From Anaerolineales bacterium (lineage in GTDB: Bacteria > Chloroflexota > Anaerolineae > Anaerolineales > Villigracilaceae): a DNA stretch of 9,150 nucleotides. Within the stretch, counting starts at the first letter, position 1. Each line of letters begins with the position of its first letter. The notes under the pieces are model-generated. The model was not told where the DNA came from. It saw only the letters and a list, made by a program, of their open reading frames with translations, and did no database searches. A program made the position numbers and the translations under genes. Where the stretch lies: contig JAFGKO010000366.1 in the NCBI GenBank assembly GCA_016928525.1, positions 1 to 9,150 on the forward strand, read 5' to 3'. Of the stretch, positions 1,309-8,933 are shown in pieces.

Positions 1309-1755
1309 TTATTCGACTGTGATAGGGAATTTCATTCCTGCCTCATAGTGACCTGGCGTGTGACAGGAAAACTCCAGGCTGCCAGCAGTTGTAGGCTGCA
1401 TGAAAGTATAGTCGAGCGTTTGTGTTGCTCCCGGGGGCAGGTCATCCTCTTCCACAAAGGCCAGTGCTAGCTCATCCATCTCTTCCATAGACATTTCCAT
1501 ACCCGCCATCATCGGTTCCATGATCATCATTTCATGGTTTACCTGACCTTCATTCGTGATGATAAAGTGATAAGGAACACCGACCTCGAATGTTTTCAGT
1601 GATGAATCGATCCCAAAATCAGTCAGTGTTACATTAACATTTATTGATCCGTCGGGGTTGGTGGAAGGGCCAGAAGCGCCACAGGCAGATAATATCAACG
1701 AAAAAGCAATGAGCACAGTGGTAATAAGCAAAGTAAGTCTGGTTTTGTTTTTCAT
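1309..1755 (-). CDS. Cupredoxin-domain lipoprotein (type 1 copper protein)
   Basis: 148 residues. The N-terminus is a lipoprotein signal with lipobox L-S-A-C (Cys25), so the protein is predicted to be anchored on the outer face of the membrane. The rest looks like a small cupredoxin fold: the first copper ligand is probably His74 in V-N-H-E-M-M, and the C-terminal cluster F-S-C-H-T-P-G-H-Y-E-A-G-M supplies Cys131, His136 and Met141, the usual Cys-x4-His-x4-Met spacing of type 1 sites. A Met/Glu-rich segment (residues 77-95, with M-M-A-G-M-E-M-S-M) lies between them and may bind extra copper. AAGGAG precedes the ATG at good spacing. It is the last gene of the operon, after a cytochrome c lipoprotein, so electron exchange with that cytochrome or copper buffering is a reasonable inference. 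Confidence 0.88.
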   Translation of the reverse strand: MKNKTRLTLLITTVLIAFSLILSACGASGPSTNPDGSINVNVTLTDFGIDSSLKTFEVGVPYHFIITNEGQVNHEMMIMEPMMAGMEMSMEEMDELALAFVEEDDLPPGATQTLDYTFMQPTTAGSLEFSCHTPGHYEAGMKFPITVE

Positions 1756-1825: not shown

Positions 1826-2329
1826 CTAAGGCAGCACTTTCAAAAAATCGAGCAGGTCAGCAAGATCCGCATCACTCATTTCCCAACGGGGCATATCGCT
1901 ATTGAACGAGTCTCCATCCGGATGTTGGCCGAGCACAACAGCATTGCGGAAGGTGTCCAGTTCGTATTCATCCATTGGCATTTCTTCAGCATCTTCGTCA
2001 TGATCGTTGATCAAAGCCGAATAGCGGATATCGGGTGCATCCATCCGTTGCATGTGCATCCAATGCAAACCGCCTCGCCCATCTTCGCCGTGACAGGAGA
2101 CGCATGCCAATCGGCCACCCATCATGCCTCCAAAACCCGGACCATCGCTATAGAGTATGTACTCACCACGGTTATTCGTGGCTGTAAAGTAAATTTGTTC
2201 TCCGTTGGAAGCATAATCCCGGTACGAAACAGGCCCCATGCCACGAGGCGACATGCTTACCGGCCAATAAATTCCACAAGCGACAAGCAGAATGCTCCCC
2301 AAGATTAAGATTGGTAAAGCTTTTTTCAT
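1826..2329 (-). CDS. Lipoprotein monoheme c-type cytochrome, Met/His-rich
   Basis: 167 residues from the ATG at 2329. A TTG six bases upstream would add two residues, but the ATG is preceded by AAAGGAAG and is preferred. The lipobox L-V-A-C (Cys18) predicts surface lipid anchoring. Heme attachment is at C-V-S-C-H (Cys76, Cys79, His80). The likely distal ligand is Met146 in S-D-M-P-R-W-E-M, followed by a C-terminal helix D-A-D-L-A-D-L-L-D-F-L, typical of class I cytochrome c. The region between carries many Met, His and Asp residues (H-W-M-H-M-Q-R-M and N-D-H-D-E-D-A-E-E-M-P-M), unusual for a plain electron carrier and suggestive of metal contact. Its role is probably electron transfer outside the membrane, with the downstream cupredoxin as a possible partner. 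Confidence 0.9.
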   Translation of the reverse strand: MKKALPILILGSILLVACGIYWPVSMSPRGMGPVSYRDYASNGEQIYFTATNNRGEYILYSDGPGFGGMMGGRLACVSCHGEDGRGGLHWMHMQRMDAPDIRYSALINDHDEDAEEMPMDEYELDTFRNAVVLGQHPDGDSFNSDMPRWEMSDADLADLLDFLKVLP

Positions 2330-2374
2330 TTGCAAATCTTCCTTTGTGTAGTGCTTCTCATTTCAATGAGGTCG

Positions 2375-2606: not shown

Positions 2607-3371
2607 CTATCTTTTTGAAACGGCCTGCCCGCTTAGGTAACTGAGATAGGCCGGGACCAGCGGCAGCACGCACGGTGAAACGAACGACAAAAAGCCGGCC
2701 AAGATTGCGGTCAGATAGGTAGGTGCAGCGGCGTAGTTGGAGAAGGCATCAATAAAATATCCATACTGGAAGGCCCAAATCGCGATGCGGTTCATCGTAT
2801 TGGTAAGCAGCATCACGCCAATGATCAGGATGAACACACCGCTGGCAGTCTTGAAGACACGCTGATAGCGTTTCATACCGTTGAGCCAGCCGGAGGCTTG
2901 TTCAAGTCCCAGCGCCAACAGCAGGAAGGGAATCCCCAGACCGATGGAATAGCCTGATGACAGCCACATAGCCTGCCCAGCCGTTTCCTGGCTCAGACCG
3001 AGGGTCAGGATGGCTCCCAGGGTAGCGCCGATACACGGACTCCAACCCGCAGCGAAAATAACGCCCATTAAGGCCGAGCCGGCAAATGGTCCGTGTTGAC
3101 CGCCGAATTGAGCACGGGTATCGGTATAAAACCAGGGAATCCGCACAATATCCAGTGTCGCCAATCCAAAGATAATGACAATCACCCCACCGACACGGGC
3201 AATGAGGTCTTTATACTGGCCAAAGAACTGGCCTGCCAGCGTGACGGTCCCGCCCCAACCGATAATGAAGATCAGTGAAAATCCGGCTACGAATGCCAGC
3301 GCATGCGCAAAGGTGGTCAAGCGTTGGTTCAGGGATATAGTCTGCGAAGGGGCAGCAATAGGTTGGGTCAT
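2607..3371 (-). CDS. ccdA: CcdA/DsbD-type thiol-electron transporter with circularly permuted transmembrane order
   Basis: 254 residues. CcdA proteins carry electrons from cytoplasmic thioredoxin across the membrane through two intramembrane cysteines. Both are present: Cys113 in A-A-G-W-S-P-C-I-G-A and Cys234 in F-V-S-P-C-V-L-P-L-V-P-A-Y. The order is unusual. The protein begins with what is normally TM2 (F-A-H-A-L-A-F-V-A-G-F-S-L-I-F-I), runs through the TM4 S-P-C-I-G block, and ends with the block that is normally the very first TM (I-L-A-G-F-L-S-F-V-S-P-C-V-L-P-L), then S-Y-L-S-G and S-K-R. No second copy of that block exists at the N-terminus. Moving an out-to-in TM1 to the end keeps every helix orientation, giving both termini in the cytoplasm. 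Its ATG overlaps the TGA stop of the DsbA-like gene (ATGA), so translation is coupled, which supports a functional pair. Confidence 0.88.
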   Translation of the reverse strand: MTQPIAAPSQTISLNQRLTTFAHALAFVAGFSLIFIIGWGGTVTLAGQFFGQYKDLIARVGGVIVIIFGLATLDIVRIPWFYTDTRAQFGGQHGPFAGSALMGVIFAAGWSPCIGATLGAILTLGLSQETAGQAMWLSSGYSIGLGIPFLLLALGLEQASGWLNGMKRYQRVFKTASGVFILIIGVMLLTNTMNRIAIWAFQYGYFIDAFSNYAAAPTYLTAILAGFLSFVSPCVLPLVPAYLSYLSGQAVSKR

Positions 3372-4141
3372 TGAGCATTGTCTCCATTGTCCAGAATAGA
3401 TTCGATCACTTGCTGAAAATTCTCAAATGGCTGTGCTCCGATTACAGGTGTGCCATTGATGACAAAAGTCGGTGTGCTCTGCACGCCTAATTGTTGCGCC
3501 ATCTGCTTTTCTTGCTGGACGATGTCGGTGTATTTTCCAGAATCCAGGCATTGACTGAAGGCATCTTCATCCAGCCCTAATTGCCCGGCAAATTGCTTGA
3601 GATTGTCCTGGCTGAAGGCGCCCCTGTTTTCACCGTTCTGGTTCTCATATAAGAAATCGTGATATTCCCAAAAGGCGTCCTGCTCGGCAGCACATTCACT
3701 TGCTTCCGCGGCCCATTGAGATTCTGGCCCCAGAAAGGCGAAATGAACATAAGCCAGCTGGACCTTGCCATCTTGTACGTATTGTTCTTCGATCTGACGC
3801 CCCGCGTCAGTGGCGAATCGCCCGCAGTACGGTCACTGGAAATCGCCGAACTCGATCAAGGTCACCGGGGCATCTGGATTGCCTTTAAAATGCCTGGTCT
3901 GTGATACCAGGTAAGTCATCAACTCTTCATTCCCGACGTCTGCCTGTGATGGGGCAATCGATTGGGGAACTACGGCCTGTTCCTCTGAGCCACTAACCAA
4001 AGGACGCCCGTAATAACCACTGAGCAAGCCGATAATCAGCATGACAACGCCCACCAGTGGCGTTGCCCAGGACTGTATGTTTATCGTGATCGCGGGTGAT
4101 CTTTTTGGTTGAACTTCTTCTGGTTCTTTTATTTCTTCCAT
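3368..4141 (-). CDS. Membrane-anchored DsbA/BdbD-family oxidoreductase, predicted selenoprotein (U-P-Y-C)
   Basis: 257 residues if TGA at 3835-3833 is read as selenocysteine. Residues about 26-43 form one TM anchor, N-terminus inside. The thioredoxin-fold domain starts at about residue 84 (F-K-G-N-P-D-A-P-V-T-L-I-E-F-G-D-F-Q), followed by Sec103-Pro-Tyr-Cys106, exactly where DsbA relatives have Cys-Pro-Tyr-Cys. The same frame stays open for 154 more codons and encodes the rest of the family: the helical insert with Cys150 and Cys198, the cis-proline loop G-V-Q-S-T-P-T-F (Pro224) and the terminal helix. The final TGA overlaps the ATG of the CcdA gene. A standard call would end at 3833 as a 102-residue stub. 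A SECIS-like hairpin follows the TGA. AAAGG lies four bases before the ATG. The start of the gene overlaps the rhodanese frame by 149 nt. Predicted role: thiol-disulfide exchange outside the membrane, with electrons possibly from CcdA. Confidence 0.85.
3794..3810 (-). promoter_or_regulatory. Candidate bacterial SECIS hairpin for the DsbA-like gene
   Basis: Read leftward, CTGACGC (3810-3804), loop GGG (3803-3801) and GCGTCAG (3800-3794) make a perfect 7-bp stem. The loop starts 29 nt after the TGA, within the spacing usual for bacterial SECIS elements, and its first base is G as the consensus requires. A second small hairpin, GGCG-ATT-CGCC (3822-3812), lies between the TGA and this stem. Confidence 0.65.
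3833..3835 (-). other. In-frame TGA at the catalytic N-terminal Cys position: predicted Sec codon
   Basis: The codon replaces the first Cys of the C-P-Y-C active site (Sec103). Cysteines elsewhere in the gene use TGC or TGT. Homology continues unbroken across the codon, so neither a frameshift nor termination explains it well. Confidence 0.82.
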
Positions 4142-4565
4142 GTTGCCTTTCTATTTCCAGCCCGGCGTTCTCCCAGGCTACCATTCCGCCATCCAGGTTG
4201 TAAACATTGGTATATCCCAAACCAACCAGGGTTTCTGAAGCGATGGTGCTCATGCGGTCACTGCGACAGTAGATGACGATTTCAGCGTTCTTATCGGCAG
4301 GCAACATATCCAGGTTTTGAGCGATCTGGTCATGGGGTATAGAAACGTCTGTGTTTGGAATATCGCCTTCAAATGGGACGTGGACATTGACCAGCGTGAA
4401 TTCCTTGTTCTTCAGCATCAAGTGGAGTTCGTCTACGCTAATTTCCGTGTACGTTCCTCCCTGGACTTCAACTTGCTTGCCCGAGATTGACGTTCCTCCC
4501 GGTTGACAAGCTGCCAGCAAAAACAATCCAACCAATAACAGTATTACCGCTACATACCGTTTCAT
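3993..4565 (-). CDS. Rhodanese-domain lipoprotein
   Basis: 190 residues from the ATG at 4565, preceded by GAGGAG. The signal peptide ends in lipobox L-A-A-C (Cys20). The domain covers about residues 38-138: E-I-S-V-D-E-L-H-L-M-L at the start, catalytic Cys100 in V-I-Y-C-R-S-D-R-M-S, and the closing G-L-G-Y-T-N-V-Y-N-L-D-G-G-M-V-A-W motif. Rhodaneses carry sulfur, or selenium in some cases, as a persulfide or selenide on this Cys. The domain proper ends near residue 138; the last 50 residues are read from DNA that also encodes the DsbA-like N-terminus, and they look basic and non-family-like. A one-base shift near the GGG run around 4160 would instead stop at TAG 4153-4151, just before the next gene's ribosome site. 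The true end may therefore be about 4151. Confidence 0.83.
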   Translation of the reverse strand: MKRYVAVILLLVGLFLLAACQPGGTSISGKQVEVQGGTYTEISVDELHLMLKNKEFTLVNVHVPFEGDIPNTDVSIPHDQIAQNLDMLPADKNAEIVIYCRSDRMSTIASETLVGLGYTNVYNLDGGMVAWENAGLEIERQHGRNKRTRRSSTKKITRDHDKHTVLGNATGGRCHADYRLAQWLLRASFG

Positions 4566-4816: not shown

Positions 4817-4990
4817 TTATTTGTGATGGTGAGCTTCGTGTTTGCTGGAAGATAAGTACTTCTCCGGATCTTTATCAAACGAGGCCTTACATCCAAGGGA
4901 ACAGAAATAGTAAATTTGTCCTTTGTATTCCGATTTTCCAGCAGCACTCTGGGGATCAACATCCATCCCACATACAGGGTCTTTAGCCAT
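4817..4990 (-). CDS. YHS-domain metal-binding small protein
   Basis: 57 residues. It begins M-A-K-D-P-V-C-G-M-D-V-D, the classic YHS opening, and contains Y-K-G-Q-I-Y-Y-F-C-S-L-G-C-K-A-S-F, giving metal-binding Cys7, Cys30 and Cys34. The tail H-E-A-H-H-H-K adds a His cluster. Free-standing YHS proteins of this size commonly accompany copper or other heavy-metal genes and are thought to bind or deliver metal in the cytoplasm. GGAG stands at ideal distance from the ATG at 4990. Longer upstream starts in this frame would run through the preceding gene and are not credible. It is the second gene of the operon, 22 bp after the first. Confidence 0.9.
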   Translation of the reverse strand: MAKDPVCGMDVDPQSAAGKSEYKGQIYYFCSLGCKASFDKDPEKYLSSSKHEAHHHK

Positions 4991-5012
4991 TGTTATCTCC
5001 TTATGATCAAAT

Positions 5013-5354
5013 TTATGAATTTTCCATTGCAGGAAGCAACGCTTGAATGATGGTTTGGTCCATTGCTTGACTCGCCATATCCACCAGCGACAGGCTGGTT
5101 TGACCATCATGCCCATGCACAACAATTGTTGCGGGTTGTGCTTTCTGGCGATGCACCAGCAAAACCACCATCTGGCAAGTGCAATCGTTCGTGCCATGAT
5201 ATGGACAGGGACAGTCCACCTGTGCCATGCGCGCGGCATGCAAATCGAACGTTCGCTCGACCTGGAAACCACCTACCATGAGCCGCTGCATTGTCCAGGC
5301 AACAGTCGTTTCAGCAGATTGGTGTAAAGTCAATATGGAAATCAGGTTACTCAT
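5013..5354 (-). CDS. Cys/His-rich small protein of unknown function, first gene of the operon
   Basis: 113 residues, no signal peptide or TM segment. The centre has a dense metal-type cluster: C-P-C-P-Y-H-G-T-N-D-C-T-C (Cys48, Cys50, His53, Cys58, Cys60). After it come a beta-like stretch (M-V-V-L-L-V-H-R...A-T-I-V-V-H-G-H-D) and a helical end (D-M-A-S-Q-A-M-D-Q-T-I-I-Q-A-L-L). The paired C-x-C motifs suggest Zn or Cu binding, perhaps sensing or buffering. I do not recognise a family. The ATG at 5354 has AGGA nine bases upstream and a well-placed TATACT -10 element, which favours this start over the internal Met22 or Met26. As the leading gene of a metal/thiol operon, it could be its regulator, but no DNA-binding motif is obvious. 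Confidence 0.68.
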   Translation of the reverse strand: MSNLISILTLHQSAETTVAWTMQRLMVGGFQVERTFDLHAARMAQVDCPCPYHGTNDCTCQMVVLLVHRQKAQPATIVVHGHDGQTSLSLVDMASQAMDQTIIQALLPAMENS

Positions 5355-5489: not shown

Positions 5490-5513
5490 AAAAGAATATT
5501 CGAGGAGAATATT

Positions 5514-5894
5514 GTGAAGAAATTTTTTGTTTTGTTATTCGCATTCGGGATATTCGGCTTTTTAGCCGCTTGTGCCTTAACTCCGGAAAATCAAACCATT
5601 CAACCAACCGAGGGCAAATTGACCTTCGCCTTCTTTTATACCGATGGTTGACAGCCTTGAGCGAAAATGCAACCCATCGTGGATGGGCTCGAAAATAACT
5701 ATCAGAAAACAGTAGAATTTGTACGGATTAATGCTAGCACAAAAGAAGGCTTGGAGATCTTCAATGCTTATTCTTTGTTTGGACACCCCAGTTATTTGAT
5801 TTTGGATGATACAGGGAAAGTGCTTTGGCAGAGTGTGGGTGAACAATCTGAAGAAAGCATTGAAAATGTTCTAAGTTCAATATTAGAGGATTGA
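5514..5894 (+). CDS. Thioredoxin-like lipoprotein, predicted double selenoprotein (U-Q-P-U)
   Basis: 126 residues if both in-frame TGA codons are selenocysteine. The GTG start has GAGGAG upstream and opens a signal peptide ending in lipobox L-A-A-C (Cys20), so the protein is a membrane-anchored lipoprotein outside the cytoplasm. After a short linker comes the thioredoxin core: beta strand L-T-F-A-F-F-Y-T-D-G, then Sec46-Gln-Pro-Sec49, then the active-site helix A-K-M-Q-P-I-V-D-G-L. Further on are a strand V-E-F-V-R-I-N, the cis-proline loop F-G-H-P-S-Y (Pro92), strand Y-L-I-L-D-D and a final helix. Both TGAs sit exactly at the two C-x-x-C cysteines. The only other Cys, the lipobox one, uses TGT. 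A hairpin after the second TGA fits a SECIS. Ordinary gene calling would split the gene or drop it. It is divergent from the operon holding the DsbA-like selenoprotein and CcdA, which are possible partners. Confidence 0.85.
5649..5651 (+). other. Predicted Sec codon, first position of the UxxU motif
   Basis: The TGA replaces the N-terminal, attacking cysteine of the thioredoxin C-x-x-C site (Sec46). The lipoprotein half before it and the thioredoxin half after it share one frame. Confidence 0.82.
5658..5660 (+). other. Predicted Sec codon, second position of the UxxU motif
   Basis: The TGA replaces the C-terminal resolving cysteine (Sec49). Two independent nonsense mutations hitting only the two catalytic codons of an otherwise intact gene is an unlikely alternative. 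Confidence 0.82.
5673..5687 (+). promoter_or_regulatory. Candidate bacterial SECIS hairpin shared by the two UGA codons
   Basis: CCCATC (5673-5678), loop GTG (5679-5681) and GATGGG (5682-5687) form a perfect 6-bp stem. The loop begins 18 nt after the second TGA and 27 nt after the first, so a single element could serve both. The loop starts with G, as the bacterial consensus needs. GAG (5659-5661) with CTC (5688-5690) may add a lower stem. Confidence 0.65.
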
Positions 5895-5909
5895 TGTAGT
5901 CAGCCGACT

Positions 5910-6035
5910 GAACATTTGCAAGCCAAAGCCTACCAGTTACTGCAAAGTGGTGAGACCCCTTGTGTGCGCATGGGCAGGACAACCAGGGTCAGGCCGGCAG
6001 ACCTGGAAGCCTATATTAAACAAAATGTTCGCTGA
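5910..6035 (+). pseudogene. Truncated excisionase-like (HTH_17/MerR-type) DNA-binding fragment
   Basis: The open frame ending at TGA 6033-6035 encodes A-Y-Q-L-L-Q-S-G-E-T-P-C-V-R-M-G-R-T-T-R, followed by V-R-P-A-D-L-E-A-Y-I-K-Q-N. This matches the second half of the HTH_17 excisionase fold: recognition helix end, wing R-x-G-R, then R-x-x-D-L-E-A-Y. The first helix and the turn (usually E-A-A-x-x-L-G-V-S) are missing, and there is no ATG or ribosome site; only a TTG near 5910 could start it. It lies in frame with the selenoprotein gene after that gene's TGA stop, which is probably chance. It is best read as a decayed remnant of an integrative element or toxin-antitoxin-type regulator. Confidence 0.65.
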
Positions 6036-7209: not shown

Positions 7210-8205
7210 ATGGACGTCGATATTCTCACAGCCGCCGAAGAGATCATCGGTCCGGCGGTTCGGGTGGAACAACACAGGGGATGGGCAACTTTTTGGTGCC
7301 CCTTCCATAATGACTCGGACCGCGCTGGTCACGGTGGGCATCCCAATTTCGGGGTGCACCTGCTAGATGGTTACTGGAAGTGCCTGCGCTGCGGCGCCAG
7401 CGGCGGCTCGCTCAAGTCCCTGAGCTACAAGCTTGGCAAGGGCTGGCAACCGCCTGTATCGGCAGTCCTGCCGACACGCTTCGAGCGACCGCCGACACAG
7501 GTCGAACAACTGGACGAAGCAATGGCCGAGGCGCGCGTGAACCTGCAGCGCTCCCCAGCCTGGGGGTATCTGGCTGAACGCGGACTGCGCCCCTATACAT
7601 CCCTGGTGTACGGTCTGGGATACGGACTACCTGTTCCGGCCGTGCACCGGGAAGTTATCCAGGCGGCGGAGCAATCCCTGATGCTGCGACGGGACGGTAC
7701 CTGGCTATGGGCCGGCGGGGTAGTGTACGCCGATCCGCCGACACACCCGGCCGTCCTGAACGTACGCTACATCCCCGCCGAGCAGCTTCCCAAAGGCACG
7801 CGCCGCTTCATCCCGAAGAAAAACCACAAGACCTGGGGCCGGCGCGTACAGCCGCTGGGCGCCTGGCGCATCACCGGCGCCACGCGCACCCTGGTGGTGC
7901 TTGAAGGGCTGTTTGATATGCTCGTCACCGCCCAGAAACTGCATGAACTGGGGTGTGAAGCCGATACGGTCGCGATCTATACCAACGGAGCCAGCCCATC
8001 GGCAAAGATGTTGGACTGGTTTTGCCGACACAACCGATACGAATACATCCTGATCCGCGACCCGGATAAGGCAGGGCAGGAATGGGAAGAAAGCGTATCG
8101 GCAGCCATCCGACACGGCGGTGCGCCGATACACTGCCTGTGCCCACCCGACACACTCGACCCGGACGAAGCCATCCTTGCAGGATGGTGGTCGTCCATCA
8201 TCTAG
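7210..8205 (+). CDS. DnaG-like primase with CHC2 zinc finger and Toprim domain
   Basis: 331 residues. A CHC2-type zinc site is formed by Cys30 and His33 (F-W-C-P-F-H) and Cys58 and Cys61 (Y-W-K-C-L-R-C-G-A-S-G-G), with N-F-G-V-H between, as in DnaG relatives. The Toprim domain begins at T-L-V-V-L-E-G-L-F-D (conserved Glu232) and has D-P-D-K-A-G (Asp284, Asp286), the metal-binding DxD motif. This is a primase that would make RNA primers for a mobile element's own replication. At 331 residues it is far shorter than cellular DnaG, with only about 160 residues between finger and Toprim and no helicase-interaction domain; this is typical of plasmid or phage forms. The ribosome site AAAGGAGGT is about 11 bases from the ATG. 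Six copies of CCGACAC lie within its sequence. Confidence 0.87.
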   Translation: MDVDILTAAEEIIGPAVRVEQHRGWATFWCPFHNDSDRAGHGGHPNFGVHLLDGYWKCLRCGASGGSLKSLSYKLGKGWQPPVSAVLPTRFERPPTQVEQLDEAMAEARVNLQRSPAWGYLAERGLRPYTSLVYGLGYGLPVPAVHREVIQAAEQSLMLRRDGTWLWAGGVVYADPPTHPAVLNVRYIPAEQLPKGTRRFIPKKNHKTWGRRVQPLGAWRITGATRTLVVLEGLFDMLVTAQKLHELGCEADTVAIYTNGASPSAKMLDWFCRHNRYEYILIRDPDKAGQEWEESVSAAIRHGGAPIHCLCPPDTLDPDEAILAGWWSSII

Positions 8206-8224
8206 ATCACACCTACACAACTTC

Positions 8225-8255
8225 AAACCGGAGAGCCGACACGCTCTCCGGTTTT
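8225..8255 (+). terminator. Terminator after the primase gene, with GCCGACAC in its loop
   Basis: AAACCGGAGAGC (8225-8236) pairs perfectly with GCTCTCCGGTTT (8243-8254), followed by T. The loop is CGACAC, so the recurring octamer spans the stem-loop junction at 8235-8242. It partly separates primase and sigma-like expression. Confidence 0.82.
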
Positions 8256-8276
8256 CGCATTTAAGGAGCAAGCAAC

Positions 8277-8933
8277 ATGGTACCGGAAGACAAATTCGAA
8301 ATCTTGAACGCGGCTGCCTGGCGCGCCGCTTGCAAATTCAACAAAAACCCTGAAGACCAGCAGGACTGTTACGACTTCGTTCTCTATCACGCCGTCTTGA
8401 AGATCGGCGAAGAGCACAACGCCAGTTACATGCGCATGCGATGCGACTCGCTGGCCCGTAACTGGTATGACGACGATCACAACCGCCATGCGAAACGCGC
8501 GGAGTATGGCATAGACCTTGACGCGCTCCCCTTCACGCGCCCGGAAAACAACCGGCATATGACGCCCGAAGAGCAGATCATTTACCGAGAAGAGATCGAA
8601 GGGATCTACAGGCTTTTTACCGAGGTCGGATTATCGGACTTCGAAATGAAAGTGATCACCACTCGCGCAGAGGGTTTTATCACGGCCCGTCAGATCGCCG
8701 AGGTGGAAAATGTGAACTTCAGTCGTGTGGTAAAGGCTGCGGTACGCGTACGAAAAAAACTCGTGCCGGTGCTGCGTGAAATGGCAATCTCAAAGGGATA
8801 CAATCCAAACGGAAAACTTGCTCCCCGGCTGGGGCACAGCCGCGAAAACAAAAGCCAGAATAAGTGCGCGGACTACTACTATCCAAACCGTGAAAGAAAA
8901 AACAAAACTGCTGCCAGTGCTCAGGTAGGGTAA
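8277..8933 (+). CDS. Sigma-70-like (ECF/phage-type) transcription factor
   Basis: 218 residues, ATG at 8277 with AAGGAG upstream. The N-terminal 90 residues resemble a divergent sigma region 2 (A-A-W-R-A-A-C-K-F...D-C-Y-D-F-V-L-Y-H-A-V-L-K-I, then S-Y-M-R-M-R-C-D-S-L-A-R-N-W-Y). After a linker, residues about 105-170 resemble region 4: P-E-E-Q-I-I-Y-R-E-E-I-E-G-I, then F-E-M-K-V-I-T-T-R-A-E-G-F, and a helix-turn-helix A-R-Q-I-A-E-V-E-N-V-N-F-S-R-V-V-K-A-A-V-R-V-R-K-K-L. The last 40 residues are polar and basic. The match is by pattern only, and a sigma-like regulator of unknown specificity is the safest call. It could drive the other accessory genes. A strong terminator follows at 8953. Confidence 0.6.
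   Translation: MVPEDKFEILNAAAWRAACKFNKNPEDQQDCYDFVLYHAVLKIGEEHNASYMRMRCDSLARNWYDDDHNRHAKRAEYGIDLDALPFTRPENNRHMTPEEQIIYREEIEGIYRLFTEVGLSDFEMKVITTRAEGFITARQIAEVENVNFSRVVKAAVRVRKKLVPVLREMAISKGYNPNGKLAPRLGHSRENKSQNKCADYYYPNRERKNKTAASAQVG

Follow-up and report, generated by a model that had tools for sequence, protein, structure and literature searches.

The gene at positions 5514..5894 (plus strand) of the DNA analysed here very probably encodes a predicted membrane-anchored thioredoxin with selenocysteine (Sec) at both catalytic positions (UxxU), likely an extracytoplasmic reductant that works beside copper-handling and cytochrome c proteins. The DNA, referred to below as the window, is a stretch of 9,150 nucleotides (contig JAFGKO010000366.1) from an Anaerolineales bacterium of the phylum Chloroflexota. 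Dozens of Chloroflexota genomes have the same UGA pair followed by a single predicted hairpin, and a two-selenium membrane-anchored enzyme is therefore predicted. An earlier note, made from the letters of the window alone, had proposed a UxxU double selenoprotein. This reading is now supported by the conserved UGA pair, a constrained hairpin, Sec machinery in most of the carriers checked, and the existence of CxxC and UxxC relatives; selenium incorporation at both UGAs is a prediction from sequence. Redox sites with two Sec are rare, and little is understood of diselenide chemistry in living cells. The UxxU family has been hidden because gene callers reduce it to a 'hypothetical protein' of about 75 residues.

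The reading frame starts at GTG 5514, with a Shine-Dalgarno-like GAGGAG (5502..5507, plus strand) 6 nt upstream of it, and its translation is VKKFFVLLFAFGIFGFLAAC...FFYTDG-U-QP-U-AKMQPIVDGL...SLFGHPSYLIL...ED. Exactly two internal TGAs are found in the frame, at codons 46 and 49 (5649..5651 and 5658..5660, plus strand), while the third (5892..5894) is the terminator. Read as predicted Sec46 and Sec49, they occupy the first and second catalytic positions, respectively, and give the motif UQPU. The earlier note had described two TGAs placed exactly on the C-x-x-C positions, a lipoprotein signal, a thioredoxin fold, and an intact cis-proline loop and terminal helix, and each part of this description was confirmed. 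The signal region reads FGFLAAC, with the lipobox LAAC at 5562..5573 (plus strand); Cys20, the predicted lipidation site, is unchanged across 30 aligned homologs. The loop with the predicted cis-proline, GHP at 5781..5789 (plus strand), was recognized in the translation and the homolog alignment, and it is followed in the translation by a C-terminal helix.

Assignment to the thioredoxin family is based on profiles and on a structural model. With Cys put at both TGAs, the frame matches PF00085 (Thioredoxin) at 30.9 bits (cut-off 23.5), and the same profile matches 30 of 30 homologs at E <= 0.001. An AlphaFold model built from 30 homologs gives a confident thioredoxin fold (mean pLDDT 90.3, pTM 0.77), and the best PDB matches of the model are mostly thioredoxins or thioredoxin-fusion chains (for 3hhv, TM 0.66/0.80 and rmsd 1.4 A). 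The TrxA equivalog models scored below their cut-offs (TIGR01068, 38 of 96.8 bits; NF047697, 40.2 of 140 bits), as did the ResA model (34.7 bits, cut-off 170), and in NCBIfam release 20.0 no model scored above cut-off for the window protein. The UxxU metal-binding family NF041115 matched neither the window protein nor any of the 30 homologs. The peroxiredoxin-type profile PF00578 had no match in the window protein and matched 2 of the 30 homologs, and membership in the peroxiredoxin (Prx) or selenoprotein L (SelL) families was rejected on this basis.

The recurrence of the UGA pair was followed in 396 genomes of the class Anaerolineae, 261 of which have some match to the gene. In the best 50 rows, a ranking that is unbiased, two in-frame TGAs occur in 47, one in 1 and none in 2. 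The 47 two-TGA rows are spread over 44 genomes, placing the family in at least 44 of the 396 class genomes. When the DNA of all 47 was read, both TGAs were on the motif and UxxU was obtained in every case (47/47). The best 31 rows comprise 30 with UxxU (one of them, L073, with UQPU) and 1 with UxxC. The middle residues differ (QP, IP, AP, AN, VP, SP, AA, PP, GP, PS, PA, TP), and both U are kept; UGPU, for example, was read at L071 (G220:C1). UxxC and CxxC relatives were also found. The earlier note had suggested a homolog search for such forms, and had named stop codons elsewhere in the homologs as a sign of decay; in the two-TGA rows read, both in-frame TGAs stand on the motif. Given the recurrence of a motif-placed UGA pair, chance is therefore excluded.

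In a 400-genome sample of the phylum, two-TGA rows were listed for G352, G377, G001, G003, G022, G150, G235 and G730, those of G150 and G235 being counted without motif confirmation. G730 (L130, UIPU) is the sole genome among the phylum-sample matches listed that lies outside the class sample. The motif was also counted at 43 loci, a count that is not unbiased because 40 regions were drawn from rows with two TGAs. The pattern used there demanded U in the motif and G-H/Q-P downstream, and L099 (UAPU) was thus missed. Of the loci scanned among L104 to L147, 12 yielded no motif (L105, L108, L118, L119, L121, L126, L127, L133, L135, L140, L143 and L147). On a tree of 66 rows and 84 columns, in which many forks are unresolved and from which six near-identical rows were excluded, the UxxU label requires 2 changes (shuffled mean 16.8), and one suffices in 12% of bootstrap trees. 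A scan of IMG/VR for relatives returned none.

That automatic annotation would lose the gene, as the earlier note had expected, is evident in the databases, which hold mostly stumps of about 75 residues beginning after the second UGA. Of 116 close database proteins, 99 start with MQP or MKP at the residue that follows the second TGA; 12 are similar stumps of 71-76 aa in which the first residue or two are different; and 1 (P0084) has an unrelated start. P0260 is likewise a 75-aa 'hypothetical protein', on a contig of 4,668,611 bp that bears the name Candidatus Roseilinea. These listed stumps would agree with decay of the gene, or with a true independent gene of 75 aa that begins at ATG 5667. 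We find either highly improbable: the part 5' of UGA1 and both UGAs are conserved at the DNA level in 51 genes including that of the window, and the ATG 5667 stump is without the first strand and without the active site of the modelled fold. Nonsense decay and an independent 75-aa gene were both rejected on these grounds.

The remaining 4 of the 116 close proteins are long (P0003-P0006) and read WQPW or WGPW, with TGA translated as tryptophan, and one further database row (P0239) is also WxxW. These five rows are what a reading of UGA as tryptophan (code 4 or 25) can draw on, and we consider that reading scarcely credible. In the family genes, TGA is confined to the two motif positions and tryptophan is encoded by TGG 29 times; relatives have Cys at these positions; and both Sec genes of the window have TGA as their stop codon. 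Tryptophan was rejected because of the TGG usage, the restriction of TGA to the motif and its use as a stop.

Downstream of the UGA pair lies a predicted SECIS hairpin (5671..5689, plus strand), the core stem of which pairs 5673-5677 with 5683-5687 around the loop centre GUG (5679-5681). Its consensus in the family is CCCAUC-GUG-RAUGGG, and the loop starts 18 nt past UGA2 and 27 nt past UGA1. According to the rules for bacterial SECIS elements given in the part of a 2026 review available to us, the distance from UGA to loop is 16-37 nt, a G stands in the first two loop positions, and the folding energy is at most -7.5 kcal/mol (PMC13188914). The window hairpin folds at -8.9 kcal/mol and agrees with these rules in its spacing to both UGAs, its loop G and its energy.

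Codon usage indicates that the hairpin is under constraint. Codons 8-12 after UGA1 encode Pro-Ile/Val-Val-Asn/Asp-Gly with near-frozen synonymous usage in 31 genes: CCC is used in 30/31, ATC in 29/29, GTG in 31/33 and GGG in 27/27 cases, vs 64/242, 81/178, 101/236 and 89/318, respectively, in the remainder of these genes (Fisher p 6e-9 to 9e-15, values that are indicative because the genes are related). The full 5-bp stem CCCAU/AUGGG is present in 27 of the 31 genes, whereas a synonymous-codon null averaged 1.7 and never exceeded 6 in 2000 trials.

The stem also goes with predicted Sec. Among 53 distinct relatives that carry Sec codons (UxxU and UxxC together), 48 have it, vs 2 of 15 distinct Cys relatives, 7 of these 15 being ordinary CGPC thioredoxins. 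L120 and L123 (repeats of included loci) and L125 (wrong frame) were dropped from the Sec set, and no full stem was read in L108, L110b and L111b, which are Cys relatives outside the 15-row count. Among the 53 Sec relatives, pair 27-37 is C-G in 46, U-G in 3 and U-A in 4, and pair 28-36 is A-U in 48 and G-C in 5. Two-sided changes amount to 15 cells vs 2.6 in shuffles (0/500 reach 15) and involve 4 such pairs; in the narrower set of 31 rows there are 5 such cells vs 1.4. A control slid by +1 comes near in two-sided cells (14 vs 15), but 48.5% of its cells are paired vs 90.3%. RNAalifold predicted no structure on the 31 rows, and single-sequence folding of both window hairpins, this one and that of the DsbA-like gene described below, is little better than that of shuffles (z -0.5 to -1.1).

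Two observations concern single-Sec and Cys relatives. L116, L117, L128, L129 and L132 are UxxC thioredoxin relatives of the same class that carry the same hairpin type with compensated stems, and UGA-bearing thioredoxins are therefore a wider theme in Anaerolineae. L104 (CGTC) is the sister of L129 (UGTC) and has a complete stem despite its Cys; it looks like a recent Sec-to-Cys replacement. What a second selenium contributes can be judged against the UxxC and CxxC relatives, which serve as natural controls.

Within the UxxU family the hairpin varies unusually little and seems to serve two UGAs, so that the decoding of two Sec codons by one hairpin can be tested directly. The arrangement could also be seen as a selenium-dependent switch, in which read-through of two UGAs from one hairpin would be inefficient, termination the main output, and the selenium status of the cell what is reported. 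The sharing of a single hairpin by two UGAs, with UGA1 more distant than UGA2, is compatible with this view. We regard it as unlikely, as conservation 3' of the UGAs extends to the individual residues of the protein, including an invariant Pro and the GHP loop, and this points to selection on the product.

Sec machinery was examined in relatives that carry the UxxU gene. The first three carriers all have SelB above cut-off (3/3) and tRNA-Sec (3/3). SelB is above cut-off in 37 of the 44 carriers and in 314 of the 396 class genomes, and with SelB this widespread its co-occurrence with the gene does not discriminate. SelA was found in 10 of 13 carriers and SelD above cut-off in 6 of 7, every SelD having one internal TGA itself. 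ARAGORN named tRNA-Sec(tca) in 9 of 13 fetched loci and none on three SelB loci; in another check, tRNA-Sec was above cut-off in 6 of 10 genomes. The Rfam tRNA-Sec model is also above cut-off in 5 of 14 control genomes, and therefore only hits of 67-74 bits that ARAGORN named tRNA-SeC were relied on. Among the seven carriers other than those 37 with SelB above cut-off, SelB is split over two contig pieces and SelA is partial in G374; G279 has broken SelB pieces together with SelA and tRNA-Sec; G192 has SelA and an end piece of SelB; G155 has SelA and tRNA-Sec; G312 has tRNA-Sec; and G315 has at most a SelB-like fragment. In G327 (L070), which is one 5.6-Mb contig, the UGAs and hairpin are intact, but no SelA, SelB, SelD or tRNA-Sec was found. 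This may reflect a recent loss of the Sec genes, a gap in the assembly, or a genuine difficulty for the selenoprotein model.

UGA can be decoded as cysteine via a tRNA-Cys with a UCA anticodon. If this took place here, the product would be an ordinary CxxC thioredoxin, with a residue that suits catalytic positions, and the lack of Sec genes in the carrier G327 would fit. We find this explanation very unlikely, since the carriers have tRNA-Sec(tca), SelA, SelB and SelD, the hairpin goes with the Sec relatives and not with the Cys relatives, and ordinary TGC/TGT codons are used for Cys 35 times in the same genes.

The window contains a second gene with a UGA at a Cys position, which was absent from the earlier note. 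It encodes a DsbA-like predicted selenoprotein (UPYC; 3368..4141, minus strand) with the TGA codon (3835-3833) at the first Cys of the motif. It matches PF13462 at 137 bits and resembles the catalogued selenolipoprotein family NF041057, against which it scores 169 bits (cut-off 190). Its predicted SECIS, CUGACGC-GGG-GCGUCAG (3794..3810, minus strand), is based on sequence and fold, and the loop lies 29 nt past the UGA. The stop of this gene is an ordinary TGA overlapping the ATG (as ATGA) of a gene for a CcdA/DsbD_TM-type membrane protein (2607..3371, minus strand). The CcdA-type protein is circularly permuted: the membrane segment that normally comes first stands at the C-terminus. Compared with a CcdA of ordinary order (L065), its residues 26-195 correspond to 54-232 and its residues 220-245 to 14-39. 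The CcdA in L070 is collinear with the permuted protein, and for the 120 matches listed of 7690 (window included), a single alignment covers 94-100%. P0062, a stump of the UxxU family, and P0129, a relative of the permuted CcdA, are both on a 92,142-bp contig with the same sources; therefore, the UxxU gene and the permuted CcdA probably occur together in a close relative.

The other neighbours on the minus strand include a cytochrome c lipoprotein (1826..2335; PF00034), a cupredoxin-like lipoprotein (1309..1755) with sub-threshold matches to PF00127 (20.5 bits, cut-off 21.2) and CopI NF051440 (43.9, cut-off 280), and a YHS-domain protein (4817..4990; PF04945, 68 bits in the enclosing ORF 4817-5272). 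A rhodanese lipoprotein ORF (3993-4565, minus strand) overlaps the DsbA-like gene by 149 bp in another frame, which is unusually long for an overlap. On the plus strand, the later part of an HTH_17 domain (5898-6032; 25.8 bits, cut-off 27) follows right after the UxxU stop; as a remnant without its first part, it is probably a decayed gene. Positions 7210-8933 (plus strand) encode a primase-like protein (Toprim/CHC2; phage primase families) and another with a weak resemblance to sigma factors, which suggests a mobile-element segment adjoining the redox genes. Scans of the window for tRNA and Rfam families gave nothing beyond two sub-threshold microRNA matches, taken as chance.

Gene neighbourhoods were counted within 4.5 kb at the 43 carrier loci, with a query set that contains the window genes and hence gives self-matches in the window. 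Cytochrome c genes were found at 23 loci, Cu-ATPase at 16, DsbA-like at 12, histidine kinase at 8, response regulator at 5, YHS at 5, cupredoxin at 4, MFS transporter at 4, CcdA at 3 and rhodanese at 3, and the marker genes are mostly on the same strand as the UxxU gene. The markers of the window itself lie on the strand opposite the UxxU gene, and no Cu-ATPase is in view there. Two of the neighbouring ATPases are copper-translocating by NCBIfam (TIGR01511, 602 and 589 bits, cut-off 397). Of the 43 loci, 32 have one or more markers of the copper, cytochrome or Dsb kind. The same queries gave 0 matches in 30 control loci (99.7 kb), which flank SelB-like and tRNA genes and are shorter and from fewer genomes than the carrier loci. 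Fusions are also seen: at L066:1155-1961 (minus strand), one protein joins the UxxU domain to a cytochrome c domain, and the gene that follows is DsbA-like with UPYC, and P0254 is a second UxxU-cytochrome c fusion, the database entry of which begins after the UGA.

A double selenoprotein might, on the other hand, be a general envelope thiol thioredoxin or one of peroxide defence, with the copper and cytochrome neighbours incidental. We give this a real but minor share of our confidence. In keeping with it, the family is generic (PF00085 in all 30 homologs), and copper, cytochrome and Dsb markers are all missing from 11 of the 43 loci (MFS only at 4, histidine kinase only at 1 and nothing at 6), some of them ending at contig edges. 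Against it stand the frequencies of cytochrome c and Cu-ATPase at carrier loci, set beside none in the controls, and the two cytochrome c fusions.

The copper and cytochrome neighbours and the fusions therefore led us to propose an extracytoplasmic diselenide/diselenol reductant, the chemistry and partners of which are inferred. SelB, acting on the single hairpin, would deliver Sec-tRNA to both UGA2 and UGA1, and the product would be exported and lipidated at Cys20. The two Sec could then cycle between diselenide and diselenol beside the His-Pro loop, with electrons presumably coming from a CcdA-type or other membrane reductase. The UxxU protein would reduce the Cys pairs of cytochrome c (CxxCH) or of copper-site proteins before haem attachment or metallation. 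ResA is an anchored thioredoxin acting for cytochrome c, and the ResA/CcdA pathway provides electron supply and Cys reduction for cytochrome c. The role of the UxxU protein would parallel those of ResA and TlpA, which act with Cys; neighbourhood and fusions are the basis for suggesting such a role for copper and haem proteins. In its widest form, the proposal is that thioredoxins with an obligate diselenide form a widespread, uncatalogued bacterial family, that one SECIS programs two Sec two residues apart, and that the product serves the assembly of copper sites and cytochrome c in the Chloroflexota envelope as a dedicated reductant of low potential; we hold this full version tentatively, at slightly less than an even chance. 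The recurring copper-pump and cytochrome c neighbours provide a concrete function to test.

Bacterial UxxU motifs are known in other families. The review cited above covers 119 families, and its available part gives UxxU for Prx-like PF00578, metal-binding NF041115 and FmdB, and enters thioredoxin PF00085 as UxxC only (PMC13188914). A double-Sec thioredoxin lipoprotein is absent from these 119 families, as far as the available part of the review extends, and no description of one was met in a literature search. The novelty claimed in the earlier note therefore stands in part: UxxU itself is known in bacteria, and a double-Sec site in a thioredoxin-family lipoprotein is, within the sources searched, new.

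Compared with known systems, the window protein is closest in family to the Sec thioredoxin UxxC (PF00085; Table 1 of PMC13188914, as available), with which it shares Sec at the first position and a SECIS downstream. It differs in having predicted Sec at both positions, in being a predicted lipoprotein, and in the His before the loop proline. SelL shares UxxU and the expected diselenide; in the available part of its description, SelL has a Prx-like fold and occurs in aquatic eukaryotes, whereas the window protein is bacterial and of the thioredoxin family (PMC2398784). UxxU is likewise shared with the prokaryotic families Prx-like PF00578, Prx-like 2 (GOS), NF041115 and FmdB, in so far as the available parts of both sources describe them (PMC13188914, PMC2398784), but these have other domains than the window family, which is typified by PF00085. 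The Rcas_1661 family (seleno)lipoprotein NF041057, 'DsbG-like' with UxxC, resembles the DsbA-like gene of the window and differs from the UxxU gene as a separate gene with one Sec. TlpA (PMC6696091, as far as available) and ResA thioredoxins are, like the window protein, membrane-anchored and extracytoplasmic in a copper or cytochrome c neighbourhood; they use CxxC, whereas UxxU is predicted for the window protein.
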